DNA from: Lampropedia puyangensis
Lineage (GTDB): Bacteria > Pseudomonadota > Gammaproteobacteria > Burkholderiales > Burkholderiaceae_C
Assembly: GCF_004833285.1 (NCBI RefSeq)
Contig: NZ_STFG01000010.1
Location: forward strand, 1-64,000
Direction of reading: 5' to 3'
DNA: 64,000 bases
A program made the position numbers and the translations under genes. The notes beneath the pieces were generated by a model that saw only the letters and a program-made list of their open reading frames with translations, was not told the origin of the DNA and ran no database searches. Below, piece after piece: positions 47,781 through 52,499 of this stretch (positions are counted from its first letter, which is position 1; each line of letters starts with the position of its first letter).

Positions 47781-49295
47781 TCAGTCTTCGACAAAAGCCT
47801 CTTCACGCTTGCTGCGAATAGATGGCAGCAACACGATCAGCAACAGCACCCCTGCTGCGATCAACAGGCCCGCAGAGATCGGACGGTTGACCAGCACGGC
47901 CCAATCGCCACGCGAGAGCAACAAGGCACGGCGCAGATACTCCTCCATCATCGGACCCAAGATGAAACCAAGCAGCAAAGGCGCGGGCTCAACAGCCAAT
48001 TTATGGAACACATAGCCAATGAACCCGAAAATCCCCACAAGCCAGATATCGAACGCATTGTTGTTGGTGGTGTACACGCCCAGAGCACAGAACAGCACAA
48101 TCGAGGGGAACAACCAGTTGTAAGGCACGGTCAGCAACTTGATCCAGATACCAATCATGGGCAGGTTCAAGATAATCAACATGGCATTGCCAATCCACAT
48201 GGAAGCAATCAGCCCCCAGAACAACTCAGGGTTGTTGGTCATCACCTCTGGGCCTGGCTGGATGTTGTGAATCGTCATCGCGCCCACCATCAAGGCCATC
48301 ACGGCATTAGGCGGAATACCCAATGTCAGCAGTGGAATGAAAGAAGTCTGAGAGCCTGCGTTGTTGGCAGATTCAGGCGCAGCCACACCACGGATATTGC
48401 CTTGACCGAATGGCACTTCACCAGGCTTGAGGCGTGTTTTCTTCTCAAGGGTATACGATGCAAAAGAAGACAGCAACGCACCACCACCAGGCAAGATGCC
48501 CAGTACAGAGCCCAAGAGCGTACCGCGGAAAATAGCAGGTGCCATCAGCTTGAAATCTTCTTTCGTGGGCATCAAACCTGTCACTTTCGTGGTCATGATG
48601 TCGCGGTTCTCTGGAGGGCGTGCCAAGTTGGCAATAATCTCGCCGTAACCGAACACCCCCATGGCGATTACCACGAAGTCAATACCGTCAGTCAGTTCAG
48701 GAATATCCAAAGCGTAACGGGCCACGCCTGAGTTGATATCCGTACCAATCATGCCCAAGAGCAAGCCCAGCACAATCATCGAAATCGCTTTGAGCAATGA
48801 GCCCGAAGCCAGCACCACCGCACCGATCAAGCCCAACACCATCAGCGAGAAGTATTCGGCTGGACCGAACATGAAGGCAACTGCTGTCAATGGCACCGCA
48901 AAAGCGGCAATCACTAATGTACCGAAACAACCTGCAATGAACGAGCCGATACCAGCAGCGGCCAGCGCAGGCCCCGCGCGCCCCTTCTTGGCCATCTGGT
49001 GACCGTCAATCACCGTCACCACAGAGGCTGATTCACCGGGCAAGTTCACCAAAATCGCAGTGGTCGAGCCACCATATTGTGCGCCGTAATAAATACCGGC
49101 CAACATAATCAACGCCGACACCGGCTCCAATCCGTAAGTGATTGGCAGCAGCATCGCAATCGTGGGCACAGGGCCCAGGCCAGGCAGCACACCGATTAAA
49201 GTACCAAGCAAACAGCCAATAAACGCATACAACAGGTTTGTTCCTGTGAACGCAACGCTGAAACCCAGCGCCAAATGGTCCAACATTTCCATCAT
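47781..49295 (-). CDS. tctA: Tripartite tricarboxylate transporter large subunit TctA
   Basis: Large 12-helix membrane subunit of a TTT carrier, 504 aa. These take up citrate and other carboxylates with a periplasmic TctC-type receptor. Family landmarks are GCLLGTLIGVLPGLGPVPTIAMLLPITYGL, YYGAQYGGSTTAILVNLPGESASVVTVIDGHQMAKKGRAG, LGILPGGGALLSSFASYTLEKK and VAAPESANNAGSQTSFIPLLTLGIPPNAVMALMVGAM. GGAGAG precedes ATG 49295. tctB lies 19 bases upstream, a terminator downstream. No tctC gene is in the window. Confidence 0.95.
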   Translation of the reverse strand: MMEMLDHLALGFSVAFTGTNLLYAFIGCLLGTLIGVLPGLGPVPTIAMLLPITYGLEPVSALIMLAGIYYGAQYGGSTTAILVNLPGESASVVTVIDGHQMAKKGRAGPALAAAGIGSFIAGCFGTLVIAAFAVPLTAVAFMFGPAEYFSLMVLGLIGAVVLASGSLLKAISMIVLGLLLGMIGTDINSGVARYALDIPELTDGIDFVVIAMGVFGYGEIIANLARPPENRDIMTTKVTGLMPTKEDFKLMAPAIFRGTLLGSVLGILPGGGALLSSFASYTLEKKTRLKPGEVPFGQGNIRGVAAPESANNAGSQTSFIPLLTLGIPPNAVMALMVGAMTIHNIQPGPEVMTNNPELFWGLIASMWIGNAMLIILNLPMIGIWIKLLTVPYNWLFPSIVLFCALGVYTTNNNAFDIWLVGIFGFIGYVFHKLAVEPAPLLLGFILGPMMEEYLRRALLLSRGDWAVLVNRPISAGLLIAAGVLLLIVLLPSIRSKREEAFVED

Positions 49296-49314: not shown

Positions 49315-49806
49315 TTATCCAATGAAACTGGGCCACACAGGCAGCACCAAATTCAAGCTTTTGATAAAGACCAAATAGCTACCTATAGCCAACACAGCGC
49401 CAAGAACCACACTGGACTTGAACGACGCGTTATAGCCAGCACGGCTGGCAATCACAGTCAGCACGAAAATGGCCACAATCAAACCAAAGGATGGAATACC
49501 TAAAGAAGGCAGGCCCACCAACAAAATCCCGAAGGCAAAGTTGGCTGCCAAGATATAAAACAGTGGCTTCCAAGCCCACTTGCCTACGGGGTCACCATCG
49601 GGAGGACCATTTCTGCGCAAGATGGACCCGAGGACAATGCCACCTCCCAAAACGGCTAGCAAAATGCCCAAGATCATGGGAAAGTAGCCTCGCCCCATAC
49701 GGGCGGCAGTGCCAACCGTGTAATTGGTTGCCCCAACTGCAAAGGTCACCCCAATGGCGGCAAACATCAAACCGGCAAAAAAATCTTTTTGACTTTTTAT
49801 GAGCAT
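49315..49806 (-). CDS. tctB: Tripartite tricarboxylate transporter small subunit TctB
   Basis: Small four-helix membrane subunit of the TTT carrier, 163 aa. It begins MLIKSQKDFFAGLMFAAIGVTFAVGATNYTVGTAARMGRGYFPMILGILLAVLGGGIVLGS, the TctB hallmark being KDFxxGLxFxxxG with the xARMGPGYFP-like segment. AGGAGT at 49814-49819 on the minus strand supports ATG 49806. It is the first gene of tctBA. Upstream at 49997-50046 lies an array of 11-bp-spaced YTGAC motifs that may bind a TctD-type response regulator. Confidence 0.9.
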   Translation of the reverse strand: MLIKSQKDFFAGLMFAAIGVTFAVGATNYTVGTAARMGRGYFPMILGILLAVLGGGIVLGSILRRNGPPDGDPVGKWAWKPLFYILAANFAFGILLVGLPSLGIPSFGLIVAIFVLTVIASRAGYNASFKSSVVLGAVLAIGSYLVFIKSLNLVLPVWPSFIG

Positions 49807-49996
49807 GCGCAGAACTCCTAAAAAACGCGCTGTGACTCGACAACAGGCCACATCCATTGAATGCAACACGGCACTCCATTTCTGCAACCTAACCTGATAA
49901 CGGCGAAATTCTCCTGCGCAGCACGTTTTGTCATTACAAGGAAACCCCTAATGCATTCTGTTTTGTTGCTCTTTTTTATTTGATTTGCGATACAGA

Positions 49997-50046
49997 CTGA
50001 CTTAAAGCTGACTAAATACTGACTATTTCCTGACCAATTGTTGACG
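49997..50046. promoter_or_regulatory. Five YTGAC motifs at exact 11-bp spacing upstream of tctB
   Basis: CTGACT at 49997, 50008 and 50019, CTGACC at 50030 and TTGACG at 50041 start exactly 11 bases apart. The spacers are A/T-rich. Direct repeats at 11-bp spacing are the binding mode of OmpR/PhoB-family response regulators (pho box CTGTCAT repeats). TctD, the known tctCBA regulator, belongs to that family. The array is 190-240 bases from the tctB start. Confidence 0.65.
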
Positions 50047-50294
50047 CATACAAGCTCATACATGCTGCGCGCACTCACAAACAGCACCGACGATGCGCCG
50101 CGACCACATGTAAAAAAACAAGCAGAACTTCCCTAATAGGGTTGGCACGACTCGTCTAATAGGCACAGCATTCCTATCATGAGCAACTCGCTCCCCTAGC
50201 CATGCACCACCATGCGACTAGATGGCCTAGCAGCAAGTTGGAGGGGCTGCAGCCCTCCTCACGCACCTAAGAACGCCTTAGGTTTCTCTCATCT
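50047..50294. other. Leader with two tandem hairpins before the degenerate-GGDEF gene
   Basis: No gene. GGAGGGGC/GCCCTCC (50240-50258) and ACCTAAG/CTTAGGT (50265-50283) form two successive stems ending 11 bases before the first possible start codon at 50295. A Shine-Dalgarno sequence is not visible. Confidence 0.5.
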
Positions 50295-52499
50295 TTGCCC
50301 ACCATTGATCGAGTGACCACCTTCTCAGAACCAACAACTAACAGCCACTGGTTCAATCGAAGACCAAGCTTTGGTATGTGCCTGAGCGCGGCACTTGCCG
50401 CAGGCCTAGTCGCAGCAGGTCTGCTAGGAGTGACGCAGACCCAAAAAAGTAAAACGATGGACTCACAAAGCGAGGCCATGGCACAGTCGCACGTGGCGCT
50501 AGCGTCTCAAAGTGCGCAGTGGCTTAGCCTATCCCTCAACGAAAAGCAAAGCCTACTTGACGCTTTTGCCAGCACACTAGTCCACGTCGATCTCAATGAT
50601 GCGATCGACGTCAAAGCATGGCTCAATGCCTATGCCGCGCCATTGACCAAAAGCTTCGCGCAAACCTGGCTGGTCGCCCCTGACAGCCAGACAGGTTCAC
50701 TCCTCAACAGCGACTTGCACACATCTCCACTACGCGCCAGACTGCTGAGCGCAGGACAAACGACGCAAGCACAAATCCTGCCAAGCACGCTTACGCGCAC
50801 ATTGGCATCGCATATACAAGCCAAACAAACCTCCAGTTTCGATGCCATCGAAGCAAACCTGCCAGCACAAGCGCAGGTGCTACACACCAGTTTGGTACTA
50901 AACACACAAGGGGCACCCATTGCGGCACTCCTAGGTGTCCTTCCGCTCTCAAGCTACCTGCCACAAGTACAGATAGAGCAGCTGCAAATATGGCCCCAAA
51001 AAAATGCCTCTGAAGCACGCCCCCGATTAGAAGGCCTATTTCTGATCAACGGAGAAAACCGCGTCATCGCCAGTGCAGGCACAACCTCTGACGCGGATGT
51101 GGCAGTTTCTCGTTCGCTCACCTCAATAGAAAACCAAGAAACGCCACAAAAAAATACGTCGAGCATTGCACTAACGCAGCAAACAGTTCCTGGAACACCA
51201 TGGCGTGTGGGTATCGCCACATGGTCTGCGCCTGCTTTACGCACATCACCGGAGCATCAACTGATTGAATGGTTTAAAAGCCAAACACCATGGCTACTGA
51301 CAGTGGTGGTATTAATCGCTATCGGATTCGTTCTTTTTTGGCGCTTCTTTACTGAATCCAAGTTACCACTGCGCTTGTCACGCCCAGAAACGCAAGCATG
51401 GCGCCAACATCAACTACCGTGGTATCAGGCCATTCTCAGCCGCGCCTCAATACCAGCACCACTCAGCCACATGCAGAACGAGTTAGCGCCTGAAAAAAAA
51501 CTCACGAACCCGTGGATCGATCCAACGAAGCCTTCCCGTGCGCACACTCACTTTGTAGACACCAACCATCTACACGCCAGCAACCAATGCATGGTGCTCG
51601 TTCGCTATGGCCGTATCAAAACCATTAGCCGTGGCGCAGCGCGCTTTTTAAGAATGGACGCAGACTGCACAAATCGTCCACATTTGCGCCAACGTTTGGT
51701 GGCGCCTCATGACTACGAACGCCTGCGTGTACTACTGCACAACGCATTGCAACACAATCCATCATTCACGTTCACCACGTTCATACGCGATCCACAAGGG
51801 CAACACCATTCCCTTTGGGTGCAAGCTTTTGCGGTCTGCAGTCCGACCTCTCAGCGCAGCAGCAGCCATTGCATTCTTTTCTTTCAAACTGTTCAGAATG
51901 CGCTTGAGCCCTTCACTCCCATGCACATTGCAGGCAATCTTGCACGGGAAATCAATCCCATCACAGCCCTACCCCAGTTCAACATATGGCGAAGTCAACT
52001 GGCGCACTGGCTGAATCACGGCAAACCCAAAAAACGACTCGAAACCAGCATTAGCAAACCCGCACAGGACACGACAGCAGGCTTTGTGTTCTATATCACT
52101 ATCGATGGATTTTCTGTGCTCGTCAGTGAAGGGGGCCAGGCTTTCGGCAACGAAGCTTTACGCTATGTTGCCAATACATTGACGCATGTCTTGGCCATGC
52201 AAGAAGCAACCAGTCTGGTTGGGCATGGACAACAAGATCATTTCGCCCTGGCCTGCTTCAACATACAAGAAGCCCAAGCCCATGCACTGGCATCTCAATT
52301 ACAACAAGCCATTTCCTCGCTGCACGCGAGCTACCAAGGCATACCCATGGCGTTAAGCATTAGCCAGGGAATTGCGCCCCTGCCGTCTCACATTGAGCAA
52401 TTGGATGCACAACTGCATGCGGCCGATCTGGCTTGCTTTGATGCTGCAGCAAAAGGAATCACGGGCATCAGCATGGCGCAGTCACTTCAAGAGATTTGA
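50295..52499 (+). CDS. Membrane sensor protein with PAS-like and degenerate GGDEF domains
   Basis: Up to 734 aa; the start is uncertain (TTG 50295, GTG 50313 or ATG 50376). Order: a membrane helix (about 27-46), a large periplasmic part (about 50-330) with no clear family, a second helix (WLLTVVVLIAIGFVLFW), a PAS-like region (about 430-540), and a C-terminal GGDEF-like fold. The alpha-helix 1 pattern ITIDGFSVLVSEGGQAFGNEALRYVANTL aligns with diguanylate cyclases, but the active-site loop reads GHGQQDHFAL instead of RxGGDEFAL. It therefore probably cannot make cyclic-di-GMP and may sense or scaffold. It converges with the oxygenase gene. Confidence 0.65.
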   Translation: MPTIDRVTTFSEPTTNSHWFNRRPSFGMCLSAALAAGLVAAGLLGVTQTQKSKTMDSQSEAMAQSHVALASQSAQWLSLSLNEKQSLLDAFASTLVHVDLNDAIDVKAWLNAYAAPLTKSFAQTWLVAPDSQTGSLLNSDLHTSPLRARLLSAGQTTQAQILPSTLTRTLASHIQAKQTSSFDAIEANLPAQAQVLHTSLVLNTQGAPIAALLGVLPLSSYLPQVQIEQLQIWPQKNASEARPRLEGLFLINGENRVIASAGTTSDADVAVSRSLTSIENQETPQKNTSSIALTQQTVPGTPWRVGIATWSAPALRTSPEHQLIEWFKSQTPWLLTVVVLIAIGFVLFWRFFTESKLPLRLSRPETQAWRQHQLPWYQAILSRASIPAPLSHMQNELAPEKKLTNPWIDPTKPSRAHTHFVDTNHLHASNQCMVLVRYGRIKTISRGAARFLRMDADCTNRPHLRQRLVAPHDYERLRVLLHNALQHNPSFTFTTFIRDPQGQHHSLWVQAFAVCSPTSQRSSSHCILFFQTVQNALEPFTPMHIAGNLAREINPITALPQFNIWRSQLAHWLNHGKPKKRLETSISKPAQDTTAGFVFYITIDGFSVLVSEGGQAFGNEALRYVANTLTHVLAMQEATSLVGHGQQDHFALACFNIQEAQAHALASQLQQAISSLHASYQGIPMALSISQGIAPLPSHIEQLDAQLHAADLACFDAAAKGITGISMAQSLQEI

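Follow-up and report, generated by a model that had tools for sequence, protein, structure and literature searches.

The tctBA upstream region of Lampropedia puyangensis

The window analysed here is a 64,000-nucleotide stretch of the Lampropedia puyangensis genome (contig NZ_STFG01000010.1, positions 1 to 64,000 of the forward strand). It encodes both membrane subunits of a tripartite tricarboxylate transporter, since the TctA and TctB domains are each present (PF01970 and PF07331). A repeat array lies between tctB and a divergent gene. The features are as follows.

47781..49295, minus strand: tctA, large membrane subunit (PF01970, 514.8 bits); one of 3 TctA in the genome
49315..49809, minus strand: tctB, small membrane subunit of the tripartite tricarboxylate transporter (PF07331, 58.7 bits)
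49928..49954, minus strand: 27-bp block GCATTAGGGGTTTCCTTGTAATGACAA between the array and tctB; identical in Lampropedia aestuarii by comparison with that species; putative control element
49997..50046, plus strand: array of five YTGAC units with a period of 11 bp, read from the letters; the only YTGAC triple of the genome; kept in L. aestuarii
50130..50152, plus strand: 23-bp block TCCCTAATAGGGTTGGCACGACT on the GGDEF side of the array; identical in L. aestuarii by the same comparison
50295..52499, plus strand: divergent gene with a C-terminal GGDEF domain (PF00990); its true start may be further downstream

The array is 188 bp from the tctB start codon (49809, minus strand). Because it sits between tctB and the divergent gene, it could serve either. 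The genome encodes 3 TctA proteins and, by contrast, 38 TctC-type binding proteins.

In L. aestuarii, too, a GGDEF-like counterpart faces away from tctB (L037 1256-3538; by eye). The GGDEF domain apparently lacks the GGDEF signature, reading GHGQQDHF in the window and GHIHKEQF in L. aestuarii (by eye). Hence, the divergent gene may not encode an active cyclase. The 27-bp and 23-bp blocks that flank the array both contain the word TAGGG. A similar stretch, AGGGTTTACCC, was seen by eye before tctB in many loci of the family.

Five YTGAC units recur with an exact 11-bp period

The preliminary description reported five YTGAC words at a strict 11-bp period. Reading positions 49997-50045 letter by letter confirms this. 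The units start at 49997, 50008 and 50019 (CTGACT), 50030 (CTGACC) and 50041 (TTGACG), and every step is exactly 11 bp. Four copies of CTGAC are thus followed by one of TTGAC. On the tctB strand the array reads GTCAA/GTCAG-N6. Direct repeats with an 11-bp period are the pattern of OmpR/PhoB-type operators, and the array has this pattern.

The 486 bp that separate tctB from the divergent ORF contain one 5-mer in four exact copies at a fixed period. Among 300 dinucleotide shuffles of this stretch, scanned for periods of 6-30, the maximum was two copies (296 shuffles) or three (4 shuffles), and never four. In the 3.97-Mb genome, the pattern YTGAC-N6-YTGAC-N6-YTGAC is found solely at the array, as three overlapping matches; the backwards-pattern control gave none. 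Carriage of the array by many unrelated regions, which the preliminary description named as evidence against its proposal, was therefore not seen. The looser pattern TGAC-N7-TGAC-N7-TGAC has three extra places beyond the array (contigs C1, C27 and C28). YTGAC pairs are at background genome-wide, with 30 pairs, 4 of them within the array, where the control gave 27. Pairs were also no more frequent than the control in the genomes of four relatives (26 vs 30, 20 vs 22, 7 vs 25 and 19 vs 19).

The array within the genus Lampropedia

Of the named relatives, L. aestuarii is the closest, with a TctB protein 88% identical to that of the window. Four GTCAG units are found at the same place in this species, and the outermost unit is degenerate. 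In the four units common to both species, all 20 core letters are conserved, compared with 14 of 24 spacer letters (Fisher p 0.0009). Rows L001-L003, L035 and L117 are copies of the window itself and were set aside.

YTGAC triples were matched in four of ten genus genomes, and the control pattern in two. The triples are at tctBA in L. puyangensis and L. aestuarii (G006); those of G008 and G009 are on contigs other than that of tctB. The 8 genomes other than L. puyangensis and L. aestuarii have no YTGAC triple at tctB. In Lampropedia cohaerens there is just one pair, which lies 99 bp before tctB.

A candidate regulator encoded beside a second tct operon

Contig C56 carries a second tct operon, in the order tctB-tctA-regulator-kinase. 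The product of the third gene has receiver and winged-helix domains (PF00072, 81.4 bits, cut-off 30.2; PF00486, 56.1 bits, cut-off 26.2). The adjacent gene encodes a histidine kinase with HisKA, HATPase_c and 2CSK_N domains. The regulator is 95% identical in L. aestuarii, and is one of nine with counterparts 73-96% identical among the stretches fetched from that species. With the NCBIfam TctD model NF012023 it scores 162.9 bits, below the equivalog cut-off of 337, and the PmrA model scores it slightly higher (169.0 bits). A regulator encoded beside tctC on contig C2 reaches 243.8 bits with the TctD model, also under 337. Hence, we call the C56 regulator TctD-like by gene neighbourhood only.

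Upstream of the C56 tct operon, both Lampropedia species have CTCAG-N6-GTCAG, which is the pair with one changed letter. The preliminary description proposed that further YTGAC arrays be sought before tctC or tctDE. None emerged, as the genome has no second triple and only this degenerate pair before the C56 tct operon.

The genome has 13 genes for OmpR-type winged-helix proteins. We compared the stretch NALEAFISRLRKKL, which corresponds to the recognition helix of the family. All 37 orthologues (the 36 described below and that of L. aestuarii) retain it with a few changes at most. Recognition helices of 11 of the 12 other OmpR-type regulators clearly differ; the exception is the regulator of a TonB-receptor operon.

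Within the genus, a C56-type regulator was found in two of the ten genomes at E 1e-50, L. puyangensis and L. aestuarii. The same two genomes carry the array of four to five units. L. cohaerens has the pair before tctB, yet no C56-type regulator was found there at this threshold. Two of the eight genomes in which it was not found are only 77 and 80% complete. Since L. puyangensis and L. aestuarii are close relatives, the co-occurrence of regulator and array may be a single event. Absence of the array from close relatives was the other outcome that the preliminary description held to count against it. The result is divided: L. aestuarii has the array, whereas the other eight genomes are without a triple at tctB and, at E 1e-50, likewise without the regulator.

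Other regulators of the same genome

A different regulator might read the array, above all that of the TonB-receptor operon on contig C1. This was the candidate first favoured. The promoter of its operon carries CTGACATGAAACTGAC, and the protein has a recognition helix, NAIDALVSRLRKRL, similar to the C56 one. No pair close to the 13 OmpR-type genes scores higher than CTGACATGAAACTGAC, which precedes the TonB receptor gene by ~45 bp. It is also the only one of four strict CTGAC pairs outside the array that does not fall inside a long ORF. However, the best matches to this regulator are at most 42% identical in the 9 other genus genomes, and 38-41% at best in L. aestuarii, which retains the array. 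It was demoted because no close orthologue was found in L. aestuarii. A second regulator, encoded on contig C12, has the imperfect pair GTCGG-N6-GTCAG just before its gene. Conversely, its recognition helix is different (EAVEVVVHRLRKKL), and no match above 45% was found among the 15 L. aestuarii stretches compared. We therefore consider it highly improbable that the array belongs to a regulator other than that of C56.

Two regulators with like helices, each with the CTGAC word in its promoter, support a pairing of word and helix. For the same reasons, the TonB-operon regulator is a possible second reader in this species. The CTGACATGAAACTGAC pair (contig C1 of G000, ~199589; L211 5084-5105) is next to a Fur-box-like stretch, before an operon for a catecholate-type TonB receptor, a response regulator and a kinase. 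The imperfect pair at the C12 gene (L210 2945-2966) is followed by GATAAA.

PhoB, CreB, OmpR and the other shared regulators were rejected. Inspection of the hit lists by eye gave no GTCAG-type tandem in the promoter of the same regulator in both species, except for the degenerate C56 pair. The TctC loci were also rejected; among the 30 of 38 scanned, the two-unit score was at most 10.9, compared with 30.2 for the array.

The word pair accompanies the regulator lineage

Orthologues of the C56 regulator were sought in 149 other genomes of the family, drawn evenly from a larger group, with E up to 1e-60. One was found in 36. The CTGAC word was searched as fixed letters. In 32 of the 36, CTGAC-N6-CTGAC occurs in the 330 bp that precede the regulator gene; orthologous loci share ancestry, so these counts are not independent and we attach no probability to them. 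The remaining 136,671 bp of the loci contained no copy on either strand. Spacings between N0 and N15 other than N6 were seen in at most 1 of the 36 loci, and the reversed-motif control in 2. At the 32 sites the first of the six spacer positions is C in 27, and the other five are variable. Three units in a row are present at L309, and two pairs at L315. Locus L326 has only 235 bp of upstream DNA; the pair is present there and was counted.

The pair is absent upstream of the regulator in four orthologues. L301 has the same tctB-tctA-regulator order as C56, and no pair before either the regulator gene or tctB. Seven family genomes have both the regulator and a window-like tctB (L126, L127, L128, L133, L138, L140 and L145); a YTGAC pair was found in none of their fetched tctB loci.

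The preliminary description expected an OmpR/PhoB-family, tct-linked regulator that is encoded outside the window and acts from elsewhere. This idea was largely right: the C56 regulator answers to it, and 32 of 36 orthologues have CTGAC-N6-CTGAC upstream.

These data also bear on whether the array is a regulator site at all. It might be a chance repeat, or a structural one of the bending or iteron-like kind; its spacers are A/T-rich, and YTGAC pairs are at background genome-wide. Against this, the genome has one single run of five YTGAC, the cores are kept while the spacers drift between species, and the same word and spacing are tied to one regulator lineage. An origin of this kind is barely credible.

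Regulator orthologues adjoin efflux or carboxylate uptake genes

The regulator lineage and the word pair are common to two kinds of neighbourhood (loci L303-L334). In 22 of the 36 loci, the gene divergent from the regulator encodes a TolC-type outer-membrane protein (tblastn). Thirteen of these loci show an adaptor behind it and 12 an RND pump; most of the other stretches end too early for either to be visible. Adaptor and pump are also present at L317, where the TolC-type gene gave no match. The one pump examined, that of L305, covers 729 residues of an incomplete stretch and reaches 694.1 bits against the CusA/CzcA family model, whose cut-off of 701.45 applies to the whole protein. In five loci, the regulator is instead divergent from window-type tctBA (TctA 76-82% and TctB 54-58% identical to the window proteins). 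The pair lies between them and, like the array, reads GTCAG on the tctB strand. Seven divergent neighbours fell in no class, and three of these loci have no pair.

In the regulator tree, L300, L301 and L302 cluster with the two Lampropedia sequences (98/91), and support is weak (76/59) for a single clade of the five regulators that adjoin window-type tctBA. Upstream of the L300 regulator gene, the start of a TolC-like gene (MSIR) has seemingly been left as a tiny frame ending after few codons (by eye). Such a remnant would be consistent with loss of the efflux operon. The lineage may offer a natural case in which a regulator keeps its binding word while its neighbour shifts from efflux to carboxylate uptake.

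The identification with TctD in the preliminary description holds in part. The C56 regulator is of OmpR/PhoB type and tct-linked, but it falls below the TctD cut-off, scores slightly higher as PmrA, and in most orthologues (22/36) faces a TolC-type gene.

Promoter geometry and the tctB palindrome

At 28 of the 32 orthologue sites, the divergent-operon strand carries GTCAG-N6-GTCAG-N11-GAYAA, which places a −10-like hexamer (GAYAA followed by any letter) exactly 11 bp after the last GTCAG. The array has the same orientation towards tctB as these sites have towards the divergent operon. In the window, the N11 position is AATCAA, which is no −10-like hexamer; in L. aestuarii it is AAAGGC (by eye). 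PhoB-type activators act from a site overlapping the −35 element. The array lacks the class II arrangement, a half-site at a fixed distance from a −10 hexamer, which is not obligatory for OmpR/PhoB-type operators. With no hexamer at N11, and at least 188 bp to the start codon, class II activation of the kind suggested for the relatives is not supported for the array. The longer array may work from further upstream, or may repress. A sigma-70 consensus scan of positions 49780-50400 found no match.

The strand of the sites also bears on which gene the array serves. CTGAC reads towards the GGDEF gene in the window, just as it reads towards the regulator gene at the orthologues, and the divergent arrangement of the GGDEF counterpart recurs in L. 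aestuarii. The array might therefore serve the GGDEF gene instead of tctBA. However, at the orthologue sites it is the divergent-operon strand that reads GTCAG and, in 28 of 32, has the −10-like hexamer at a fixed distance. That operon is window-type tctBA in 5 of 36. Control of the GGDEF gene in place of tctBA seems unlikely on this comparison.

Other tctB genes have a different upstream element. In 72 of 80 loci (L044-L116), a palindrome of the form TAGGTGGAATCCACAT (for example GTAGGTGGAATCCACAT) begins 71-87 bp upstream of the tctB match. It is absent from eight, namely the seven closest relatives (L037-L043) and L075. It is also missing in the window and in the five loci with window-type tctBA next to the regulator. 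Five palindrome loci additionally have a GTCAG pair, so the two elements are not exclusive. Loss of control by the palindrome, and gain of control by the GTCAG pair, would be an attractive reading of the history of the tctBA promoter.

We also scanned 79 tctB upstream regions with a weight matrix. For two units, 7 regions were above the 99th percentile on the tctB strand and 1 on the other, with 0.8 expected. For three units, the numbers were 6 and 3. This is weak evidence, since four of the top hits are from Pseudorhodoferax and the background is mostly coding DNA.

A model for the array

We conclude that the array is probably an extended operator for the C56 response regulator, an OmpR/PhoB-family protein of TctD/PmrA/QseB-like type, and that it links the window tctBA to the signal of the C56 kinase. 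Each CTGAC would be a half-site, and dimers of the phosphorylated regulator would sit head to tail on two adjacent half-sites. Four to five units would therefore leave room for two dimers, possibly loaded cooperatively, and one spare half-site. The genes tied in this way to the C56 kinase would most likely be the stand-alone tctBA pair, in place of the GGDEF gene or alongside it. The effect could be of either sign. We propose that both TctBA pairs would consequently be made together for the 38 TctC-type proteins.

A broader history can be offered only tentatively, and we hold it to be somewhat less probable than not. In the Comamonadaceae, one regulator lineage and CTGAC-N6-CTGAC may have moved between CzcCBA-like efflux, in many genomes, and TctBA carboxylate uptake, in others. 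In Lampropedia, they may then have taken over a palindrome-less, stand-alone tctBA promoter by growing an array of four to five units. If so, a signal common to efflux and carboxylate uptake is suggested, for example a metal-carboxylate complex. The comparison yields a testable combination of candidate regulator, DNA word and spacing.

Comparison with known systems

Among the open-access papers searched, we found no description of the CTGAC word pair or of this site, and none that treats TctD, tricarboxylate and a direct repeat together. The CreB tag is TTCAC-N6-TTCAC, and the PhoP boxes of Streptomyces are multi-unit. These resemble the array in combining a 5-mer with N6 in direct repeat, and in forming arrays of more than two units. 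They differ in their words and in their regulators.

PhoB boxes are, like the array, tandem half-sites in direct repeat about one helical turn apart. The PhoB box is given as two (T)GTCAT with a 5-nt spacer (PMC4513871). By contrast, the word of the array is CTGAC, and L. puyangensis has a separate PhoB with another recognition helix.

The closest parallels are TctD of Pseudomonas aeruginosa and Salmonella and BctDE of Bordetella pertussis, which, like the C56 regulator, are encoded beside tct or bct genes; they control tctCBA or bctCBA. Published work describes a small P. aeruginosa TctD regulon, including its own gene and opdH-tctCBA (PMC4513871), a model for TctDE (PMC8102459), and BctDE as activator of bctCBA in an organism with many orphan binding proteins (PMC5812351). 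In the passages of PMC8041468 consulted, TctD is named only in data and reference lists. P. aeruginosa TctD is of OmpR/PhoB type, and its motif occurs both at tctD itself and at opdH-tctCBA. The Lampropedia system differs in that the C56 regulator is under the TctD cut-off, the array has five units, and the putative action extends to a distant tctBA. On this reading, the array is an operator of a familiar kind in a long form, and it is the pairing of this regulator with this word that we newly infer.
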